DNA of 31,820 nucleotides from a virus, in IMG/VR virus record IMGVR_UViG_3300009504_000003, positions 1-31,820 of that record. One strand, given 5' to 3'. The notes under the pieces were generated by a model. The model saw only the letters and a list, made by a program, of their open reading frames with translations, did no database searches and had not been told where the DNA came from. A program made the position numbers and the translations under genes. Below are positions 7,964 through 31,820 of the stretch, piece after piece (position 1 is the stretch's first letter; each line of letters opens with the position of its first letter).

Positions 7964-8698
7964 ATGTACTGTTGCAACTGTGGCGAACCCGACCCAACAC
8001 CGGAGGCCGTGGTGGTTCCACCCGATTGGGAAAAGCACACTATTGGCACCACCTTCCCCATTACCGTGGTATTTACTTGCCCTGCATGCACGCTTGACAT
8101 TGAGGTAAACATGCCCAAACGGTACAGGCGGGCCTCCAGCTTGCGCCCCCTGTACGATTGCATAGCTTGCACTTATAGCACACATCACAAACGGGAAATG
8201 GATACGCACCTTACCAACAACCACCGGTTTGAGTATGGTGTACGCACCGATAGCAAACGGCCATGGTACAGGTGCCAAGTGTGCGGTATTGAAACAGGTA
8301 ACGCACATTACATGCGTATGCACCTGGAAACGCACGAATTAACGGCTGTTGGGTACACGCCCGGAACCAGGGGTACCAGGCGCAAGCTCAAGCAACAACA
8401 GTTTAATGGTTGGTTGCGGCAAAGCCTCATACCACATTACAAGTGCCAGCTTTGTGGCATCGTGTTGGAGGATACCGCAGCCATGGTGGAACACTATTAT
8501 GACCACCACCCTGCGGCCATTACCAAACCACCGCTTGAGATAATAGGTAAAGATGGCAACGCTTTTGCTATCCTCGCCCAAGCCAAAGCAGCAGCGTTGG
8601 ACTATGGGCTACCATGGGCCGAAATGAAGCCCGTGCTTACAAGCGGCGATTACAACCACATGCTTGCCAAACTGTGCGATTACTTTGAGGTGGTGTAA
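7964..8698 (+). CDS. Three-finger C2H2 zinc-finger protein with C-terminal phage domain
   Basis: 244 residues from ATG 7964. After an N-terminal zinc ribbon (C3/C4, C6, C39, C42) come three C2H2 fingers: C66-x2-C69-x12-H82-x4-H87; C104-x2-C107-x12-H120-x3-H124; C161-x2-C164-x12-H177-x3-H181. Finger linkers hold basic residues (RRKLKQQQ at 139-146). The C-terminus, DGNAFAILAQAKAAALDYG... then SGDYNHMLAKLCDYFEV (about 197-243), matches the pattern of a short domain common in phage hypothetical proteins. A sequence-specific DNA-binding or RNA-binding regulator is plausible. Canonical C2H2 fingers are typical of eukaryotes and archaeal viruses and uncommon in phages. Confidence 0.75.
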   Translation: MYCCNCGEPDPTPEAVVVPPDWEKHTIGTTFPITVVFTCPACTLDIEVNMPKRYRRASSLRPLYDCIACTYSTHHKREMDTHLTNNHRFEYGVRTDSKRPWYRCQVCGIETGNAHYMRMHLETHELTAVGYTPGTRGTRRKLKQQQFNGWLRQSLIPHYKCQLCGIVLEDTAAMVEHYYDHHPAAITKPPLEIIGKDGNAFAILAQAKAAALDYGLPWAEMKPVLTSGDYNHMLAKLCDYFEVV

Positions 8699-14784: not shown

Positions 14785-15964
14785 CAACATATACCAGCTT
14801 ACCATGAAATACCTGGTGGACATGCGCATGCTATGGCCAAACATCTATGCACCATACTATGTGGCAAGCGTTGGTTGCCACCTGTTAAACTTACGCAACC
14901 GGCGGCAACTATCCGGCAAAGGCTGGAACTTTCATGTGGAAGGCGGCATGATACCTGACATGAGGCTCCACCTGTTGATGACCTGCCCAAGCGGCTTTGG
15001 CAAAAGTTACACGCCAAGGCGGTTTATCAGCAACAACGAAACAGGATTGTTGGATAAAAGCAGCATACACGCCGTGTTTAAAGGCTACATGACGGAAGCG
15101 GGCCTGGTTGGCACCTTTAAAGAAGGTGTAATGGTGCGTGGCCTCGCACACACGCACCGTGACAGCATCTTGTGCCTTAACGAATTAAGCGCAATCCAGG
15201 GCGAAGGCGAGGGCTATGCCAAGCTTGGCGACGCCCTGTTGGATTTGTTGGACGATGGCCATGTACACAAAAACCTTGCCGGCGGCGAGATTGATTACAC
15301 CAGCTATGTTACCCTATGGGCAGGCACACAACACGCCAGGTTTCGCCTATCCAGCGGCCACGGGCGCAGGCTTATGCTGTTGGAGTTTTTGCCCGATAAA
15401 GACCAGCGCAGGCAACTGCGATTGGCCAAACGGGCTGCCAGGGGTGTAACCGTAAACCATGCCAAGTTGCAACATATTTGGCAAGCCTGGGCCGAGCTTA
15501 AAAACGGGCTTGATGTAAAAACCGTGGATATATCAGAAGATTTGTACGATTTCTTTGACACCGTGCCAAACTGTAACCACAACGACGAAGAATTGTACAC
15601 CAGGCTGGCCATGGGGTATGCGCTTGTGCGGTACTATCGGCCAGGCGACAAAACCCTGGTTGTAGATGTGGACGAAACTATACAAACACTTGTACTGCAA
15701 GCGCACCGGTGGCGGGAAAGCCTGTTGGGCGATAGTGCAGGAGCACAAGTGTTGGCTTTGCTGCGGGAGCAGCCTGGCGGCATGACTACAACAGATATTA
15801 AACGGGCAGCACAAACCTTTGGCCTCACCTATGGCGACACCACCGATTTGCTGACGACACTAATACAACAGGGTGTTGTAGTTGGCAGGCGCATGAAAAC
15901 GAGGGGGCGGCCCACAACGCTTTACCAAGTGGTTGATATGATGGACGGCGGTGGTGCGGAATGA
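14774..15964 (+). CDS. P-loop ATPase with C-terminal winged helix (DUF3987/helicase-like)
   Basis: 396 residues from TTG 14774. GGAGG at 14762-14766 is 7 bases upstream and the first in-frame ATG (14804) has no binding site. Walker A is C71-P-S-G-F-G-K77-S78, where Cys replaces the usual first Gly/Ala. A Walker-B-like strand is SILCLNE (131-137), followed by a TLWAGTQHAR segment and GHGRRLMLLEF near residues 193-205. The last ~90 residues resemble a winged helix (DAGAQVLALLREQ... TTTDIKRAAQTFGLTYGDT). It may be a replicative helicase or ATPase and ends at a probable terminator. Confidence 0.7.
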   Translation: MPTNNIYQLTMKYLVDMRMLWPNIYAPYYVASVGCHLLNLRNRRQLSGKGWNFHVEGGMIPDMRLHLLMTCPSGFGKSYTPRRFISNNETGLLDKSSIHAVFKGYMTEAGLVGTFKEGVMVRGLAHTHRDSILCLNELSAIQGEGEGYAKLGDALLDLLDDGHVHKNLAGGEIDYTSYVTLWAGTQHARFRLSSGHGRRLMLLEFLPDKDQRRQLRLAKRAARGVTVNHAKLQHIWQAWAELKNGLDVKTVDISEDLYDFFDTVPNCNHNDEELYTRLAMGYALVRYYRPGDKTLVVDVDETIQTLVLQAHRWRESLLGDSAGAQVLALLREQPGGMTTTDIKRAAQTFGLTYGDTTDLLTTLIQQGVVVGRRMKTRGRPTTLYQVVDMMDGGGAE

Positions 15965-15979
15965 TACGCCGCCTTTTTT
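15947..15979 (+). terminator. Likely intrinsic terminator
   Basis: GGCGG (15947-15951) pairs with CCGCC (15969-15973) around a 17-base loop and is followed at once by six T (15974-15979). It overlaps the end of the ATPase gene. This is where the early block ends and the radical SAM cassette begins, the place one expects a terminator. The stem is short and the loop long, so strength is uncertain. Confidence 0.5.
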
Positions 15980-16221
15980 CCTCCACTCCTCAACCAAATA
16001 AGCGGTTTTGTGCCCCCTGGCTTATTTTTAACTTATTTTTGGCAGGCACGAAAATAAGCCATAAAAAAGGTGGTGCAACGGTTACAACCAACATCAACAC
16101 ATACCCCGACATGCAGTTGGTAATCTTGGAGGTATGCTTGGAAACCAATGATGTGCAGGCGGGCCGGCGGTGGCTTGAACGCAAAGCAAAACAGCTTGTG
16201 CAGGGTGGTGAACGCCTATGA
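15961..16221 (+). CDS. Small ORF ahead of radical SAM gene, start uncertain
   Basis: The frame is open for 86 residues from ATG 15961, which overlaps the previous stop as ATGA. But its first ~37 codons span the terminator T-run and the paired hairpins of a regulatory region and read unlike a phage protein (MIRRLFSSTPQPNKRFCAPW). From about 16072 the coding looks normal, ending MQLVILEVCLETNDVQAGRRW. Starting at ATG 16111 gives a 36-residue protein. Its stop overlaps the radical SAM start. Function unknown. It could be a translational leader. Confidence 0.45.
   Translation: MIRRLFSSTPQPNKRFCAPWLIFNLFLAGTKISHKKGGATVTTNINTYPDMQLVILEVCLETNDVQAGRRWLERKAKQLVQGGERL
15996..16060 (+). promoter_or_regulatory. 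Two mutually exclusive ATAAGC hairpins (attenuator or operator)
   Basis: AAATAAGC (15996-16003) pairs perfectly with GCTTATTT (16020-16027), while GGCTTATTTT (16019-16028) pairs perfectly with AAAATAAGCC (16051-16060). Both stems use the same central strand, so only one can form. A further copy, ACTTATTTTT, lies at 16031-16040. In DNA the same repeats could be operator sites. They separate the early block from the radical SAM cassette. Confidence 0.55.
16039..16067 (+). promoter_or_regulatory. Possible promoter for radical SAM cassette
   Basis: TTGGCA (16039-16044; five of six matches to TTGACA) and TAAAAA (16062-16067; four of six matches to TATAAT) are separated by 17 bases. The second hairpin arm AAAATAAGCC lies in the spacer, so a protein bound there could block RNA polymerase. 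It fits a new transcription unit after the terminator at 15947-15979. Confidence 0.45.
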
Positions 16222-17846
16222 AGGTGTTGTTTATCATACCGCCCTATCGCACCACCGACAGCCTCACCAACCAAGCATACCCGATGCCATACGGCCAAGT
16301 GATACTTGGCACAATCTTACAACAGCATGGCCACCAAGTAACCATAAAAGACTTTTTGTTGCCCAGGCAAGAGCATGGTGGCATTAAAACACCGTGGCCC
16401 AAGGGTAGCCATGGCCCAAGATACCGCCACTATGGTGTACCGTTGGAAGAGTGTGTTGAGTGGGTGTTGGCCAATGCTGCCAACTTTGATGTGGTTTGTT
16501 TGGCCATGGCCCAATGTAACATTTGGGAAACGGGTGTTGTAATCGGCAGGGTTGTGCGTGAAATGGGGGTGCCGCTTGTAATCGGCGGCCCGTATGTAAC
16601 CACCTGTCCCAACGATGCCATAGCACAAACCGGCGCAAATGTAGCCGTTACAGGCGAAGCCGAAGATGTAATCTTGGAAGCGTGTACAGCGGCGTTGGGT
16701 TGGCCCACAACCCCGTTGGTGATACCAGGCACATTGGTGGACATTACCCGTACACCATTGCCCGATTGGAATCTTGCGCCACCGGCCAACTATCCCAAGT
16801 ACAACGGCAAGGTGCGTTGTGTGCTTACTGTAACCCGTGGTTGCCCACAAGCATGTGCGTTTTGTTGTGTACACACGATTATGGGCCGCAACCACCGGCG
16901 GCAAAACCGCCAGCGGATAACAGCCGAGTTAGTAAACCTGGCCCAACATGGTGTACAGTATATGTGCTTCCTGGACGACAACCTGTTTATTAGCACGCAA
17001 GCGGTGGAAGATGTGCTTGGCGGCATAAACGATGCCAACCTTAAACACACACGGTTTTACATGGAGGAAGGCTTGGAAATACGGGTGGCAGCACAACCAG
17101 GTGTTGTGGAGCGGATAGCAAGCGCAGGCTTTGATAACATCGGCATAGGATTGGAGAGTTTAAACCAAACCAATCTTGAAACGGTGAAAAAACCATACAA
17201 CCACCAACAATTTACACAAGCCATAAACAACTTTGAGGCGGCTGGCGTGGTACCCCGTGCGTTTTACATCATAGGCTTCAAACATGACACCTTGCAAAGC
17301 GTGTGCCACGATATTGTACAACTTGCCACAATGCCCGTGGCAGTACGGCCCAACAACCTTAAACTATACCCAGGCACCACCGTTTACAACGAGTACAAAG
17401 CAGCTGGTATGGTGCCGGAAGGCTACGACTGGCGGTGGAGCAGCTGGCACACAATACACCCAACCTTGGACATGGCTACCATTAAACGCCTCAAAGCCGT
17501 GTTGCGCACTATCGGCCACTTTTACGAGGAGTACAGGGTGTTAGTGGCAAGCGACGGGTTTTACACCATAAAGCACAAGTTGCGTGCCCGCAACCACGAC
17601 TTACAGTATGATGGCAACACTTTGGTGCTAACCGGTAACATTTGGCGGGACACCCCTTACAGGCAGTTCCTCGAGTTGTTACTGTTACGGTTGGGGGCAG
17701 CCGGAGCAGTTGCACGGGTAACGCCAACAGGCGTTGAAGCCGTGCCGGCTTCCAGGCCCAAGGACAGGGTGCAAGCATGCTTGCGGGTGGCCCTGCAAAC
17801 AGATACCAAACCAGCAATGGACAACTTGGACAGGTGGTTGAAATGA
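16218..17846 (+). CDS. B12-binding-domain-type radical SAM protein
   Basis: 542 residues from ATG 16218 (ATGA overlap with the previous ORF). An N-terminal Rossmann-like domain (MKVLFIIPPYRT..., about 1-155, with GVPLVIGGPYVTTCPNDAI) matches the layout of B12-binding radical SAM enzymes, although the classic DxHxxG cobalamin ligand is not evident. The [4Fe-4S] site is C209-P-Q-A-C213-A-F-C216, the CxxxCxxC signature that cleaves S-adenosylmethionine. FLDDN (251-255) and GIGLESLNQ belong to the TIM barrel. The C-terminal ~140 residues are unassigned. Target unknown: methylation or rearrangement of nucleic acid, peptide or metabolite are all open. Confidence 0.85.
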   Translation: MKVLFIIPPYRTTDSLTNQAYPMPYGQVILGTILQQHGHQVTIKDFLLPRQEHGGIKTPWPKGSHGPRYRHYGVPLEECVEWVLANAANFDVVCLAMAQCNIWETGVVIGRVVREMGVPLVIGGPYVTTCPNDAIAQTGANVAVTGEAEDVILEACTAALGWPTTPLVIPGTLVDITRTPLPDWNLAPPANYPKYNGKVRCVLTVTRGCPQACAFCCVHTIMGRNHRRQNRQRITAELVNLAQHGVQYMCFLDDNLFISTQAVEDVLGGINDANLKHTRFYMEEGLEIRVAAQPGVVERIASAGFDNIGIGLESLNQTNLETVKKPYNHQQFTQAINNFEAAGVVPRAFYIIGFKHDTLQSVCHDIVQLATMPVAVRPNNLKLYPGTTVYNEYKAAGMVPEGYDWRWSSWHTIHPTLDMATIKRLKAVLRTIGHFYEEYRVLVASDGFYTIKHKLRARNHDLQYDGNTLVLTGNIWRDTPYRQFLELLLLRLGAAGAVARVTPTGVEAVPASRPKDRVQACLRVALQTDTKPAMDNLDRWLK

Positions 17847-18001
17847 CAAACGAAACAATACCAACATTGGTGCGAGTAACCGTTATATGTGGCGATAGCC
17901 AGCACCAAGCTTATGTGTGCAACGAGGGCATAATCCACAGCGAATGCCATATATGCAACGGCATGTTACTTGGCGATTGCCAACAACAGGAGGACGAGTA
18001 A
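17843..18001 (+). CDS. 52-residue Cys-containing peptide between radical SAM and methyltransferase genes
   Basis: 52 residues from ATG 17843, overlapping the radical SAM stop (ATGA). Five Cys occur: one in VTVICGDS and four in CNEGIIHSECHICNGMLLGDC. ECHIC plus a preceding and a following Cys could hold zinc. Tight translational coupling to a radical SAM gene makes it a candidate accessory protein or modified peptide substrate. A simple zinc ribbon is the more conservative reading. No leader or recognition motif is evident. Confidence 0.6.
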   Translation: MTNETIPTLVRVTVICGDSQHQAYVCNEGIIHSECHICNGMLLGDCQQQEDE

Positions 18002-18002
18002 G

Positions 18003-19133
18003 ATGCCCACACAAGATGTGTTACGCCAACGGTTTGGCGAACCACCATTTACCATACTTAACACACGCACCGGCACATGGCAGGAACGCCGCCAAGGCTG
18101 GCTATCGTTAGGTTTGCAAAGCGACGAAGGCAGGGCCGAAGATTTGTTAAGCGGCGGCACCATAGCCACCCTCAACGAAAATTATGGCAAAAACATGGCG
18201 GGCACCAGCATATTTGACCCTGTACTGTGCGAGCTTGCATACACCTGGTTTGCCAACCCTGGCGACATAGTTATCGACCCGTTTGCAGGCGGCAGCGTGC
18301 GAGGCGTGGTAGCCGCCAAACTTGGGTTACAATACTATGGCATAGATTTGCGCAAAGAACAAATACGGGCCAACCAAACCCAATGGCGCAAGATACGCCA
18401 AAACTTGCCAGCGGATACGCCACCACCCCAATGGTTTGTGGGCGACAGTACCAACATAACCACCATACTTGAGGGCATACAAGCCGACTTTTTGTGGACA
18501 TGCCCGCCTTACTACGATTTGGAGGTTTACAGCAGCCTACCAGGCGAGTTAAGCGCAGCACAAAACTACCGCAAGTTTTTGGAAATGTACGGCACCATAA
18601 TAAGCCAAGCAGCCACCCTGTTACGCCAAGACCGGTTTGCCGGCATCGTGGTTGGGAACATACGGGACAAACACGGGTATGTACTCGACTTTGCAGGCGA
18701 CACCACCCAACTATGCCAACGGGCCGGCCTCCGCCTGTACAATGATGCAATACTCGTAAACTGTGCAGGCACCCTGCCCATAAGGGCCGCCAACCTAATG
18801 CGCAACCGCAAACTTGCACGAGCACACCAGAACATACTAATCTATTACAAAGGCAACACCAAAAATATACAACGCCGCCACGACATGACACCATTTGACT
18901 TACAACAACACACACTTGCCGATTGGATAACAGGCCCACAACCAACCGCACCAACAACACCCACAAACACATGCGAACCACAACCCGAAGGCATAGATTG
19001 GGATACCTGGGAGGCTGATGAGCCCACAGAAGAACCACCACCACCACCCAAAACACCAACACCAGGCGCATGGAAAGAACGCACCACCTACAAAGCCCAA
19101 CGCAACCACATAACAAAAGGTGGTAGCCGGTGA
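18003..19133 (+). CDS. Phage DNA methyltransferase-like protein (N4/N6 type)
   Basis: 376 residues from ATG 18003. SAM-binding motif I is D92-P-F-A-G-G-S98, and motif IV is T166-C-P-P-Y-Y-D-L-E174, a CPPY variant of (D/N/S)PPY that is usual in a phage-borne family with the flanking patterns SIFDPVLCELAY and GTLPIRAANLMRNRKL. It would transfer methyl to the exocyclic amine of adenine or cytosine. Target unknown. The C-terminal ~65 residues are Pro/Thr-rich, low complexity and A/C-rich in DNA. The stop overlaps the next start. Its place between two radical SAM enzymes suggests a shared DNA- or RNA-modification role, which is inference. Confidence 0.8.
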   Translation: MPTQDVLRQRFGEPPFTILNTRTGTWQERRQGWLSLGLQSDEGRAEDLLSGGTIATLNENYGKNMAGTSIFDPVLCELAYTWFANPGDIVIDPFAGGSVRGVVAAKLGLQYYGIDLRKEQIRANQTQWRKIRQNLPADTPPPQWFVGDSTNITTILEGIQADFLWTCPPYYDLEVYSSLPGELSAAQNYRKFLEMYGTIISQAATLLRQDRFAGIVVGNIRDKHGYVLDFAGDTTQLCQRAGLRLYNDAILVNCAGTLPIRAANLMRNRKLARAHQNILIYYKGNTKNIQRRHDMTPFDLQQHTLADWITGPQPTAPTTPTNTCEPQPEGIDWDTWEADEPTEEPPPPPKTPTPGAWKERTTYKAQRNHITKGGSR

Positions 19134-20143
19134 AAGAAATATTGCTAATAGATGCGGACCACATGGGCGTGGACACGGCCAAAAATGATTACCCAAACCT
19201 GGCCCTCATCAAGTTATCCGCATGGCACAAACAACAGGGCGACAATGTAACACTATCCACGGGCCACACAAATGTGGCAACACCCGACAAAGTGTACATC
19301 GGCGTGGTATTCACCTGGAACGCACACAAAGCCTTACAAATATACCAAATGTACAAAGCACGCAATATACCGGTACGCCTGGGCGGCTACCCCGTGGCAC
19401 CAACCACAAACCTACCACAACACATTGAACACATAATGCCCGATTACAACCTATACCCGACACCATATAGCCTTGGCTTCACAAGCCGTGGTTGCATACG
19501 CAAATGCAGCTTTTGCATAGTACCCCTAAAAGAAGGACACATACACCATGTTGCCAGCATACACGAATTTTTACACCCACAACACACAGAATTGCGCATA
19601 TTAGATAACAACCTGTTAGCATCACCAAAAGCACACGAAACACTCGAAGAAATAGCACAAGCACCCGTAACCGTGGACTACAACCAAGGCCTCGACATAC
19701 GCCTTGTAACACCACAAAACGCCAAACTATTACACGCAACAACACCAACCACCTATTACCGCTTCAGCTACGATACGCCAAACATAACCAAACAGGTGGA
19801 AAAAGGCATACAAACACTAATACAAGCCGGCATAAGACCAAGACAATTATCTTTTTACATGCTAATAGGCAAAGACACAACCTTCGAACAAGATATGTAC
19901 AGGTTTAAAATACTAAAAAAACACCGTGTAAACGCCTACCCCATGATATACAAACCCATTGGCAACATGGAACCACCAATAACAAACTACCCAACAGCCA
20001 ACATGGAAACCTTCAAAAAGTGCGTATCACAAACACCACTATCCAGCATCTTTAAACTTGCCCGCTGGTACAATATTTATGAAGAACGCCGCAAAACACC
20101 CACAAAAACACCCTTAACAACCACCCTAACAGCCTTTAAATAA
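19130..20143 (+). CDS. Second radical SAM protein (phage-type)
   Basis: 337 residues from GTG 19130 (GTGA overlap). The [4Fe-4S] motif is C122-I-R-K-C126-S-F-C129, inside GFTSRGCIRKCSFCIVPLKEG. The N-terminal 110 residues (NLALIKLSAWHKQQGDNV and YIGVVFTWNAHKA) keep a reduced B12-domain-like fold. Downstream, ILDNNLLA and VDYNQGLDIRL continue the barrel. This layout recurs in phage and gut bacterial genomes with unknown substrate. Base use is strongly A/C-rich, poorest in G and T of the whole window. It is the last gene before the terminase and ends the cassette. Confidence 0.85.
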   Translation: MKEILLIDADHMGVDTAKNDYPNLALIKLSAWHKQQGDNVTLSTGHTNVATPDKVYIGVVFTWNAHKALQIYQMYKARNIPVRLGGYPVAPTTNLPQHIEHIMPDYNLYPTPYSLGFTSRGCIRKCSFCIVPLKEGHIHHVASIHEFLHPQHTELRILDNNLLASPKAHETLEEIAQAPVTVDYNQGLDIRLVTPQNAKLLHATTPTTYYRFSYDTPNITKQVEKGIQTLIQAGIRPRQLSFYMLIGKDTTFEQDMYRFKILKKHRVNAYPMIYKPIGNMEPPITNYPTANMETFKKCVSQTPLSSIFKLARWYNIYEERRKTPTKTPLTTTLTAFK

Positions 20144-20187: not shown

Positions 20188-20676
20188 ATGGCTAAAAAAC
20201 ACAAAACTTGCAACCTGGAAGAAATCCCAATACCCGACCCAAGCACCAAACCATACAAGCGTTGGGTGCGCAAGGAACGGTTGGCATACCTGGTGGCGGA
20301 AACCATGCGGTTGGGCAGCAGCCGCCTAATATCACGCACCAACATGGCCCAACAGTTTGGTGTAAGCATACCGGTGATATGCACCGATATTAAACAGGTT
20401 GATGCGTACATTGGGCGCAGCATGAGTGGCGAGCGGGCCACCAGCATGTTGTACACCAGCTTCCAAACCGCACATGCCGAGTTGGTGGCTGGTGGCCAGC
20501 ATGCTGCTGCTTACAAGCTTGCACGAGATTTTTGTGATTACCTCCAAACCCTGGGTGTTATCACCAAGGCGGCTGACGAGTTGGTGGTGGACTTTAAGGC
20601 TGGCAACATCAACATAGTTTTCACCAACACCGATGCAACCGCCTGTTTGCAACCACCCGAAGAAGAACAGGATTGA
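20188..20676 (+). CDS. terS: Terminase small subunit
   Basis: 162 residues from ATG 20188. GTG 20179 is in frame, but it overlaps the GGTGG binding site, so ATG is preferred. A helical N-terminal half holds a helix-turn-helix-like stretch (RLISRTNMAQQFGVSIPVICTDIKQ, about 46-70) suitable for binding the packaging site. The rest is helical and ends in an acidic tail. The gene immediately precedes terL, the normal order. Identity rests on position and HTH character, as small terminases diverge strongly. Confidence 0.75.
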   Translation: MAKKHKTCNLEEIPIPDPSTKPYKRWVRKERLAYLVAETMRLGSSRLISRTNMAQQFGVSIPVICTDIKQVDAYIGRSMSGERATSMLYTSFQTAHAELVAGGQHAAAYKLARDFCDYLQTLGVITKAADELVVDFKAGNINIVFTNTDATACLQPPEEEQD

Positions 20677-20683
20677 AGGCACG

Positions 20684-21886
20684 ATGGCAAGCACTTTGGA
20701 ATACCCTGCAACCCCATACCAGCAACGGTTTTTGAGTTGCAAATATCGGTATCCGGCTTTTATCGGCGGAGTGCGCAGCGGCAAAAGCCATGCGGGCACA
20801 TTGTGGGCGTTGCTGCAAACCATGCGGCAGCCAGGCCAAACGGGCCTTATTGGCGGCCTCACATATCCCATGCTGCGAGATGTGGTATTGCCCTTGTGGC
20901 AAGATTTGGTGCCGGAACAGTTGGTAATCGACCACGATAAAACCGCAGGCATAACCTACATGGCCAACGGCAGCAAGGTGTTATGGCGCAGCTTGGAAAC
21001 ATTGCGGCAGATAGACCGCATAAGAGGCCTTACACTATCTTGGGCTTGGGTGGACGAAGGCCCGTACTTGCCGGAGTATGCGTGGCGTGTACTGTTGGCC
21101 CGTGTGTGCCGTGGCAATCGGCAAATAGGCTTAACAGGCACGCCCAAGGGCATGAATTGGGTTTTTCGGCGTTGGGGCGAGCGCAAGTATGGCAAGCATT
21201 ATGGGGGCGTGTTTGGCGTATCCTCCGACACCAATCCGGCGTTGGATAGGGCGTATTATGATAACTTGCGGTTGGAGTACACGGGCGAATACTTGCAACA
21301 GGAGTTCCATGGGTTGTGGGTAGCCTTTGAGGGCCTGGTGTACAAGGAGTTGGGGCGGGCCAATATCATTACCAAAGCCATGGCGGACACCCTGCGGTAT
21401 GACGGGTATGTGTATGGTTACGACAGCGGGTACACTAACCCAAGGGTGTTGTTGCAGTTTGGCCATACAACTTGTGGGCGTTGGGTGTTGTTGGGCGAGT
21501 GGTACCAAACACAAACATTGTTGGAAGATGTGTTACCCGTTTGGCAGCGTGATGTTTTCGCGAATCGGCAAGGGCCGGTGTTTTGTGACCCAAGCGCAAA
21601 AATCGACATAGTTGCGATGCAGCGAGCCGGTATTGATGCCAGGGCGGGTAACAACAATGTGGTGGAGGGAATACAATATATCAAGGGCTTGCTATCCAAG
21701 GCGGTGTTGTTGGTGGTGGAGGAGTTGTGCCCGCATACGATGGCGGAGTTTAATATGTACCAATGGGTTGATGACCAGCGGAAAGATGAGCCTGTTAAGT
21801 TAAACGACCATGCTATGGACGCCATGCGGTATGGGTTGTTGCCTGCAACCGCACGGCGTGTTGGCATTATTGGGGGCAGGCTATGA
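20684..21886 (+). CDS. terL: Terminase large subunit
   Basis: 400 residues from ATG 20684. ATPase: Walker A G28-G-V-R-S-G-K34-S35, Walker B WAWVDE (D124, E125) and coupling motif LTGTPKG (150-156). Nuclease: YGYD247 and CDPSA (D302), and NDHAMDAMRYG (D375, D379), the acidic triad of the RNase H-like domain. Together they pump DNA into the procapsid and cut it. The short length (400 against 450-600) comes from a compact nuclease. The next gene begins inside its stop (ATGA). Confidence 0.93.
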   Translation: MASTLEYPATPYQQRFLSCKYRYPAFIGGVRSGKSHAGTLWALLQTMRQPGQTGLIGGLTYPMLRDVVLPLWQDLVPEQLVIDHDKTAGITYMANGSKVLWRSLETLRQIDRIRGLTLSWAWVDEGPYLPEYAWRVLLARVCRGNRQIGLTGTPKGMNWVFRRWGERKYGKHYGGVFGVSSDTNPALDRAYYDNLRLEYTGEYLQQEFHGLWVAFEGLVYKELGRANIITKAMADTLRYDGYVYGYDSGYTNPRVLLQFGHTTCGRWVLLGEWYQTQTLLEDVLPVWQRDVFANRQGPVFCDPSAKIDIVAMQRAGIDARAGNNNVVEGIQYIKGLLSKAVLLVVEELCPHTMAEFNMYQWVDDQRKDEPVKLNDHAMDAMRYGLLPATARRVGIIGGRL

Positions 21887-31555: not shown

Positions 31556-31820
31556 CTTTCCAGGGTTGTTGAGAGCATACCAAACACCTGTGGTTATACA
31601 CCACCGTACCGAAACGGGTAAAGATGCGTATGGCCAACCTGTTTTTACCGTTGTGGATTATGAGCTTAATGCCCATTTCCAGGAGATGCCCGTTGAACAA
31701 CTGTTACAATACCAGGGCATAAGCGGCACCCGTATGGCCAACCTGTTTGTACCCCTTGGCACCATACTTGCTGTTGGTGATGGCGTGACAGCGGGCGAAT
31801 CTGCTTGGGTGGTTGTAACC
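31539..31820 (+). CDS. Head closure / head-tail connector protein (N-terminal part, runs off window end)
   Basis: The frame opens with TTG 31539 (MRFKVDFPGLLRAY...) and runs to the window end, continuing at base 124 on the circle. TTG is chosen because GGGAGG at 31526-31531 lies exactly 7 bases upstream, the spacing seen at other starts here, and because no ATG exists near the beginning of the frame. The start overlaps the preceding connector gene by 17 bases. The sequence contains PVVIHHRTETGKDAYGQPV, followed by beta-rich segments typical of small head-completion proteins. The role (sealing the portal-connector and joining the tail) is inferred from gene order and length. Confidence 0.7.
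   Translation, partial: MRFKVDFPGLLRAYQTPVVIHHRTETGKDAYGQPVFTVVDYELNAHFQEMPVEQLLQYQGISGTRMANLFVPLGTILAVGDGVTAGESAWVVVT
31698..31820. repeat. Direct terminal repeat, right copy
   Basis: Exact copy of bases 1-123. Removing one copy gives a 31,697-bp circle. The junction continues the open frame of the head-closure gene without a stop, which supports genuine circular closure. Confidence 0.95.

Follow-up and report, generated by a model that had tools for sequence, protein, structure and literature searches.

Do four adjoining genes of a small virus, coding for a radical SAM protein, a short cysteine-containing peptide, a DNA methyltransferase-like protein and a second radical SAM protein, form one dedicated modification system, as a sequence-only reading of the locus had proposed, or does only a part of this arrangement recur elsewhere? 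The window, i.e. the whole stretch of DNA which was analysed, is the IMG/VR virus record IMGVR_UViG_3300009504_000003 with a length of 31,820 bp. As the same 123-bp stretch is present at each end as a direct terminal repeat, the record represents a complete genome, and its size of about 31.7 kb agrees with the one assumed earlier. The gene order starts with tail genes, small early genes, MazG, a KaiC-like ATPase, a 438-aa gene and an 86-aa open reading frame, and continues with the first radical SAM gene (rSAM1), the gene of the 52-aa peptide, the methyltransferase (MTase), the second radical SAM gene (rSAM2), a gene in the position of the small terminase subunit, the terminase large subunit (TerL), portal, protease and major head protein. 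All features located here and below are on the plus strand. TerL (20684–21886) was assigned by its match to phrog_2 (E = 3e-41) and by synteny, and the gene in the small-terminase position (20188–20676), which lies directly 3' of rSAM2 after a gap of 44 bp, has a weak match to a PHROG of unknown function. No close relatives of the phage turned up in the viral and genome collections scanned, and a scan of viral contigs with TerL gave no match. The host is probably a microbe that avoids oxygen. Chloroflexota were considered as a lead to the host and were rejected, as the prophages with the nearest TerL in a genome search (33–39% identity) share no other window protein nearby.

The four reading frames, their motifs and their junctions were confirmed as originally read, down to the exact residues of the CxxxCxxC motifs (209–216 in rSAM1 and 122–129 in rSAM2). 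The radical SAM or methyltransferase nature of the three larger products is beyond chance, with E values of 4e-14 for rSAM1 (Pfam Radical_SAM), 4e-69 for rSAM2 (phrog_9298) and 5e-97 for the MTase (phrog_12517). The junctions are of the ATGA type at 16218 and 17843, leave one nucleotide at 18003, and are of the GTGA type at 19130, with a Shine-Dalgarno-like site at each of the four. The tight coupling on which the original proposal was built is therefore real, but it is not special to these genes. Touching or overlapping junctions (−4, −1, 0, +1 and +2 nt) are spread over the entire genome. The run of coupled genes also starts ahead of rSAM1, at 15961, with the 86-aa open reading frame (15961–16221), which has ATGA couplings on both sides, with rSAM1 and with the 438-aa gene preceding it. 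As coupling is found genome-wide and the run starts before rSAM1, it provides no evidence for a four-gene unit.

A survey of homologues in other genomes gave a clear answer on the set as a whole. It was found in none of about 88 rSAM2, 80 MTase and 80 rSAM1-like loci. Of the approximately 88 rSAM2 loci, taken from phage genomes and viral contigs, only two (L037 and L089) had a gene closely related to the window MTase, and only one (L036) had a full-length B12-type radical SAM gene nearby. The 80 rSAM1-like viral loci contained rSAM2 in no case and a weak MTase match in one, and within 6 kb of the 80 closest MTase-anchored viral loci no relative of rSAM1 or rSAM2 was found. The homologues thus largely occur apart from each other, and the four genes as one conserved system are not supported. 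What stands of the proposal is a pairwise link of rSAM2 to DNA methyltransferases, which arose in many independent events.

The MTase gene (18003–19133, ATG start) codes for a DNA methyltransferase-like protein of 376 amino acids belonging to the phrog_12517/phrog_498 family; in addition to phrog_12517, it matches the profiles phrog_498 (E = 3e-75) and N6_N4_Mtase (8e-13). Its motif I, DPFAGG, fits the FxGxG type of the DNA N6-adenine and N4-cytosine amino-methyltransferases, but its motif IV, TCPPYYD, fails the [DNS]PP[YFW] pattern usual in these enzymes. The CPPY variant is shared by 73 relatives, with SPPY in one relative (L037). As CPPY stands in place of the usual D/N/S-PPY, the target base of the enzyme cannot be stated. 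The family motifs PPF-LD-R-G-WQ-R, FDPVLCE and CPPYYDLE are all kept. The phage ParB-MTase family to which this protein is related (phrog_498 and phrog_12517, including gp77 of Listeria phage B054 and gp36 of Enterococcus phage phiFL3A) is 40–50% identical to it in the MTase half; the ParB-like N-terminal domain of the aligned relatives is absent here and the window protein begins at the MTase half. The usual place of these genes is just upstream of the terminase genes, with TerL at most 3.5 kb downstream in 44 of the 63 phrog_12517/498 loci that had enough sequence. The window keeps this order from MTase to terminase and has rSAM2 sitting between them, so that its MTase, unlike those of the family, is flanked by radical SAM genes.

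The second radical SAM gene, rSAM2 (19130–20143, GTG start), codes for a protein of 337 amino acids. Its match to phrog_9298 (E = 3.8e-69) extends over residues 14–287 and was counted as full-length; its score is below the Pfam Radical_SAM cut-off, but family and fold are clear nonetheless. The CxxxCxxC motif is present in 165 of 166 members of the family, the family invariants Q186, D189, R191, D215 and R258 are all found in rSAM2 in the alignment, and the only invariant cysteines are C122, C126 and C129. A confident AlphaFold2 model (pLDDT 89.7, pTM 0.86) gave MtaB (5e-10) and MiaB (3e-9) as Foldseek matches with TM scores of 0.57–0.59. These methylthiotransferases are the nearest solved folds and share with rSAM2 the radical SAM core and a CIVPxxEG-type loop following the CxxxCxxC motif. 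In contrast to them, rSAM2 lacks the three N-terminal cysteines for a second [4Fe-4S] cluster, has a reduced N-terminal domain and, with its 337 amino acids, shows no TRAM match in Pfam. Fusions of rSAM2 with a length of roughly 700 amino acids also exist, but as their N-terminal domain has no Pfam match, they do not point to a function. phrog_9298 is a large phage family labelled "radical SAM domain protein" in PHROGs with no assigned function, and in the literature searched neither a function nor a link to methyltransferases is described for it. In the genome scan, the hosts of the family were overwhelmingly anaerobes (Clostridia, Bacteroidales, Desulfobacterota, methanogens, Thermoplasmatota and Dehalococcoidia), with possible exceptions, among them a Nitrospinaceae metagenome-assembled genome.

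The neighbourhood of rSAM2 was then analysed by an adjacency test. Among 138 non-redundant rSAM2 loci, which were the best-scoring ones from viral and genome collections, with genes of at least 130 amino acids taken from simple longest-ORF calls and gene order shuffled within loci, a C5-MTase adjoined rSAM2 in 23 loci versus 10.1 expected (p ~0.001), an N6/N4-MTase in 13 versus 8.2 (p = 0.04), and a PAPS-reductase-like gene in 11 versus 6.3 (p = 0.02). No significant excess beside rSAM2 was obtained in this test for XerC, helicase, TerL, DnaC, Rep, RecT or resolvase. A cruder earlier version with a weak null had also flagged XerC; the final one was restricted by gene length and had more controls. 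Irrespective of adjacency, a C5-MTase was present in 36 of the 138 rSAM2 loci versus 5 of 79 viral loci anchored on the ParB-MTase (Fisher p = 0.0003), while a control scan anchored on DnaC yielded 11 loci only, which is too few. On a tree of 112 rSAM2 sequences, 28 of them MTase-adjacent, the state of having an MTase next door requires at least 24 changes, from which it follows that the association arose many times. Examples are a bacterial genomic locus in which a C5-MTase, rSAM2 and an N6/N4-MTase follow one another, with a 4-nt overlap between the C5-MTase and rSAM2, the Oscillospiraceae phage NatCom_21982 with an MTase immediately upstream of rSAM2, and the Methanomassiliicoccales virus vir215, in which MTase and rSAM2 are both upstream of TerL. 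In the majority of the rSAM2 loci, however, no MTase is adjacent.

The reading tentatively favoured, to which we give somewhat less than an even chance, is that rSAM2 is an oxygen-independent modifier paired with DNA methyltransferases in phages of anaerobes, acting most likely on DNA bases and serving anti-restriction or marking. In such a scheme the MTase would methylate phage DNA at packaging or before, and rSAM2 would act on the methylated base or its neighbourhood, with a 5'-deoxyadenosyl radical abstracting hydrogen from the base or the methyl group. The group added or altered in this way would protect from restriction without a need for oxygen, and in the window rSAM2 would have been inserted between the packaging-linked MTase and the terminase genes. 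Shared function would here follow from adjacency, and DNA as the substrate as well as the radical chemistry are likewise parts of what this reading presumes; a functional MTase-rSAM2 pair is plausible. Besides the recurrent adjacency, the proximity of its fold to the nucleic-acid-modifying MtaB and MiaB and the overwhelmingly anaerobic hosts in the genome scan count for this reading. The mixed partners of rSAM2, C5-MTases on the one hand and N6/N4-MTases on the other hand, fit poorly with one defined substrate, and the fact that the window MTase family manages without radical SAM genes in all 80 loci likewise counts against it.

Site statistics limit what such a modification might do. The avoidance of GATC pointed out in the sequence-only reading was borne out, with no site in the whole window versus 56 expected, 6.9 of these expected within the four genes. 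ACGT is likewise absent from the genome, which furthermore has 2 CGCG versus 94 expected, 1 CTAG versus 16, 3 CTNAG versus 56, and 11 GANTC versus about 20. This pattern suggests that virion DNA can be restricted at GATC, ACGT, CGCG, CTAG and CTNAG. Because these five sites are so strongly depleted, protection of the bulk genome by hypermodification is doubtful, and any modification of the phage DNA would be sequence-specific or incomplete.

A quite possible alternative, also short of even chances, is that the genes are simply stacked, with an MTase in its usual place in the packaging region and rSAM2 and rSAM1 as unrelated cargo of a compact operon with no functional link. It accounts well for the 44 of 63 loci in which the MTase-terminase synteny occurs without a radical SAM gene, for the highly diverse neighbours of rSAM2, for rSAM1 relatives lacking both other genes and for coupling all along the genome. 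What it does not account for is the statistical excess of methyltransferases beside rSAM2 with its multiple origins, though the same adjacency statistics could also result from a common insertion hot spot for anti-restriction cargo.

Two further ideas on rSAM2 are both unlikely. The first is that it modifies RNA, tRNA or rRNA, as MiaB and MtaB do. These two are its best fold matches, and in the Bacteroides phage LoVEphage a gene annotated as tRNA splicing ligase is located a few genes downstream of rSAM2. Against this, the restriction of invariant cysteines to the three of the radical SAM motif leaves no auxiliary cluster for sulfur transfer, a TRAM match is lacking, no tRNA genes were found in the window, and the neighbour bias favours DNA methyltransferases. 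The second, to which a similarly low probability is assigned, takes rSAM2 as an anaerobic counterpart of TET/JBP. In the base-hypermodification systems of phages with TET/JBP and an MTase, the MTase has a radical or oxidative enzyme as its partner. By analogy, the MTase would write a methyl group and the radical of rSAM2 would attack this methyl group or the base, resulting in a hypermodified base which blocks restriction. Different from the TET/JBP systems, the window yielded no 2OG-Fe(II) dioxygenase gene when its proteins, from all but the smallest open reading frames, were compared with Pfam or PHROGs, and a radical SAM enzyme would need no oxygen.

Concerning the other half of the arrangement, rSAM1 (16218–17846) codes for an orphan radical SAM protein of the cobalamin type (class B-like), which has 542 amino acids with a Rossmann-type B12-like domain (residues ~1–160), a core (~200–400) and a C-terminus (445–542) which is unmodelled. 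The match to the Pfam B12-binding domain PF02310 (E = 1.4e-6, 28.6 bits) is under the cut-off of 32.1, and the scores for all B12-radical SAM families of NCBIfam are far under their cut-offs, with no equivalog among them. The AlphaFold2 model (pLDDT 76.8, pTM 0.78, with residues 445–542 unreliable) matched AprD4 (1e-19), MgmA, TsrM, CysS and TokK in Foldseek. The protein resembles these cobalamin-dependent class B enzymes in its fold, in RGCPxxCxFC and in FLDDN, and differs from them by the C-terminal 100 residues without assignment. The modelled fold thus fits a cobalamin-type radical SAM protein, with cobalamin use and methyl transfer being predicted. Its identity is at most 28% to viral relatives (best 80 found) and 19–28% to the plasmid relatives listed, and the sole phage match in GenBank is from Streptomyces phage SF3 (22%). 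Single-sequence scans of viral and genome collections with rSAM1 gave no match. Its family and that of rSAM2 are interrelated (hhalign probability 99, E = 7e-18).

The frame of the 52-aa peptide (17843–18001) overlaps rSAM1 by ATGA, has a Shine-Dalgarno-like site and contains five cysteines (C16, C25, C35, C38 and C46). This direct overlap, together with TIGR03975, a RiPP C-methyltransferase, among the weak matches of rSAM1 (1.4e-6), might suggest that both form a small RiPP-like peptide-modification pair independent of the DNA genes. We consider this very unlikely. The best NCBIfam matches of rSAM1, all below cut-off, are lipid, phosphinate or tetrapyrrole enzymes, and no SPASM domain was found in it with Pfam. 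The longer reading frame containing the peptide gave no Pfam or PHROG match, no relatives of the peptide were found in phage genomes, and its CxxC looks more like that of a small metal-binding protein. In the reading favoured above, rSAM1 and the peptide would have entered the genome as separate cargo, upstream of the same MTase, and would not be a required part. Least probable of all is the original idea of one dedicated four-gene system, which can draw on the overlapping order in a single transcript-like run and on the recurring MTase-rSAM2 adjacency but was met as a set in none of the loci surveyed.

The main interest of this locus is therefore in the rSAM2 family and less in the four-gene arrangement. 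The oxidative DNA-base modification known in phages depends on dioxygenases which use oxygen. A large phage family of radical SAM proteins centred on anaerobes and found repeatedly beside DNA methyltransferases is a testable candidate for oxygen-free DNA modification, and as phrog_9298 is carried by cultured Bacteroides phages, the test may be made by nucleoside mass spectrometry.

The record carries a direct terminal repeat of 123 bp in identical copies at positions 1-123 and 31698-31820 and is therefore a complete genome, even though its classification may be that of a linear one. Several short palindromes are strongly avoided simultaneously across the whole window (1-31820): GATC and ACGT are absent against 56 and 89 expected occurrences, CGCG is found twice (94 expected), CTAG once (16 expected), and CTNAG three times (56 expected). 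The terminase large subunit (20684-21886) is closest to prophage terminases from the phylum Chloroflexota with 33-39% identity (10 of 251), the best phage record reaching 30%, and the host of the virus may lie within this phylum. Around these nearest terminases, the Chloroflexota prophages had no further gene in common with the window. The zinc-finger-like protein at 7964-8698 gave weak matches to DUF7128, DUF7560, and ZNF451-type models.

Relatives of the phrog_9298 radical SAM protein rSAM2 (19130-20143) occur in varied contexts. In Deltaproteobacteria-type and Aminicenantes genomes it is fused to an N-terminal domain without a Pfam match, yielding proteins of 635-731 amino acids (loci L119, L124, L145, L153, L157, L165, L170, L172, and L177). 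Two rSAM2 paralogues in one phage were seen in L024 (8644-9762) and in L060 (5008-6705). A coupled operon of Ruminiclostridium hungatei (L431:705-5637) comprises a HerA-like ATPase, a GHKL/Hsp90-like ATPase, and an rSAM2 relative of 559 amino acids, and looks like an undescribed locus for defence or modification. In a viral contig (L036:1468-10185) glycosyltransferase-like genes, a SPASM radical SAM gene, rSAM2, a gene resembling those of aldo/keto reductases, and a B12 radical SAM gene follow each other consecutively, a possible modification pathway.

In the family of the DNA methyltransferase-like gene (18003-19133) motif IV is CPPY throughout, and the order methyltransferase, small terminase, and large terminase is conserved (loci L178-L257); in 44 of 63 loci the large terminase gene is no more than 3.5 kb away. 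Croceibacter phage P2559S (L456:2045-3686) carries a methyltransferase of this family with an overlapping gene annotated as S-adenosylmethionine decarboxylase directly downstream. A distinct kind of radical SAM gene, spore-photoproduct-lyase-like, is found near genes of ParB-domain methyltransferases in 11 of 79 viral loci (L342, L344, L350, L351, L358, L365, and others). In 14 of the 80 closest viral loci a gene for a PLP-dependent, PALP-like enzyme is located near the methyltransferase relative; examples near or in such relatives are L231:4657-5370 and L017:3482-5971. In Pseudanabaena phage Pam4 the PALP-like domain is fused inside the methyltransferase, where residues 462-591 (Pfam PALP, 9e-9) separate its two halves. 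Together the PALP-like enzymes and methyltransferase relatives possibly serve a DNA modification derived from an amino acid.
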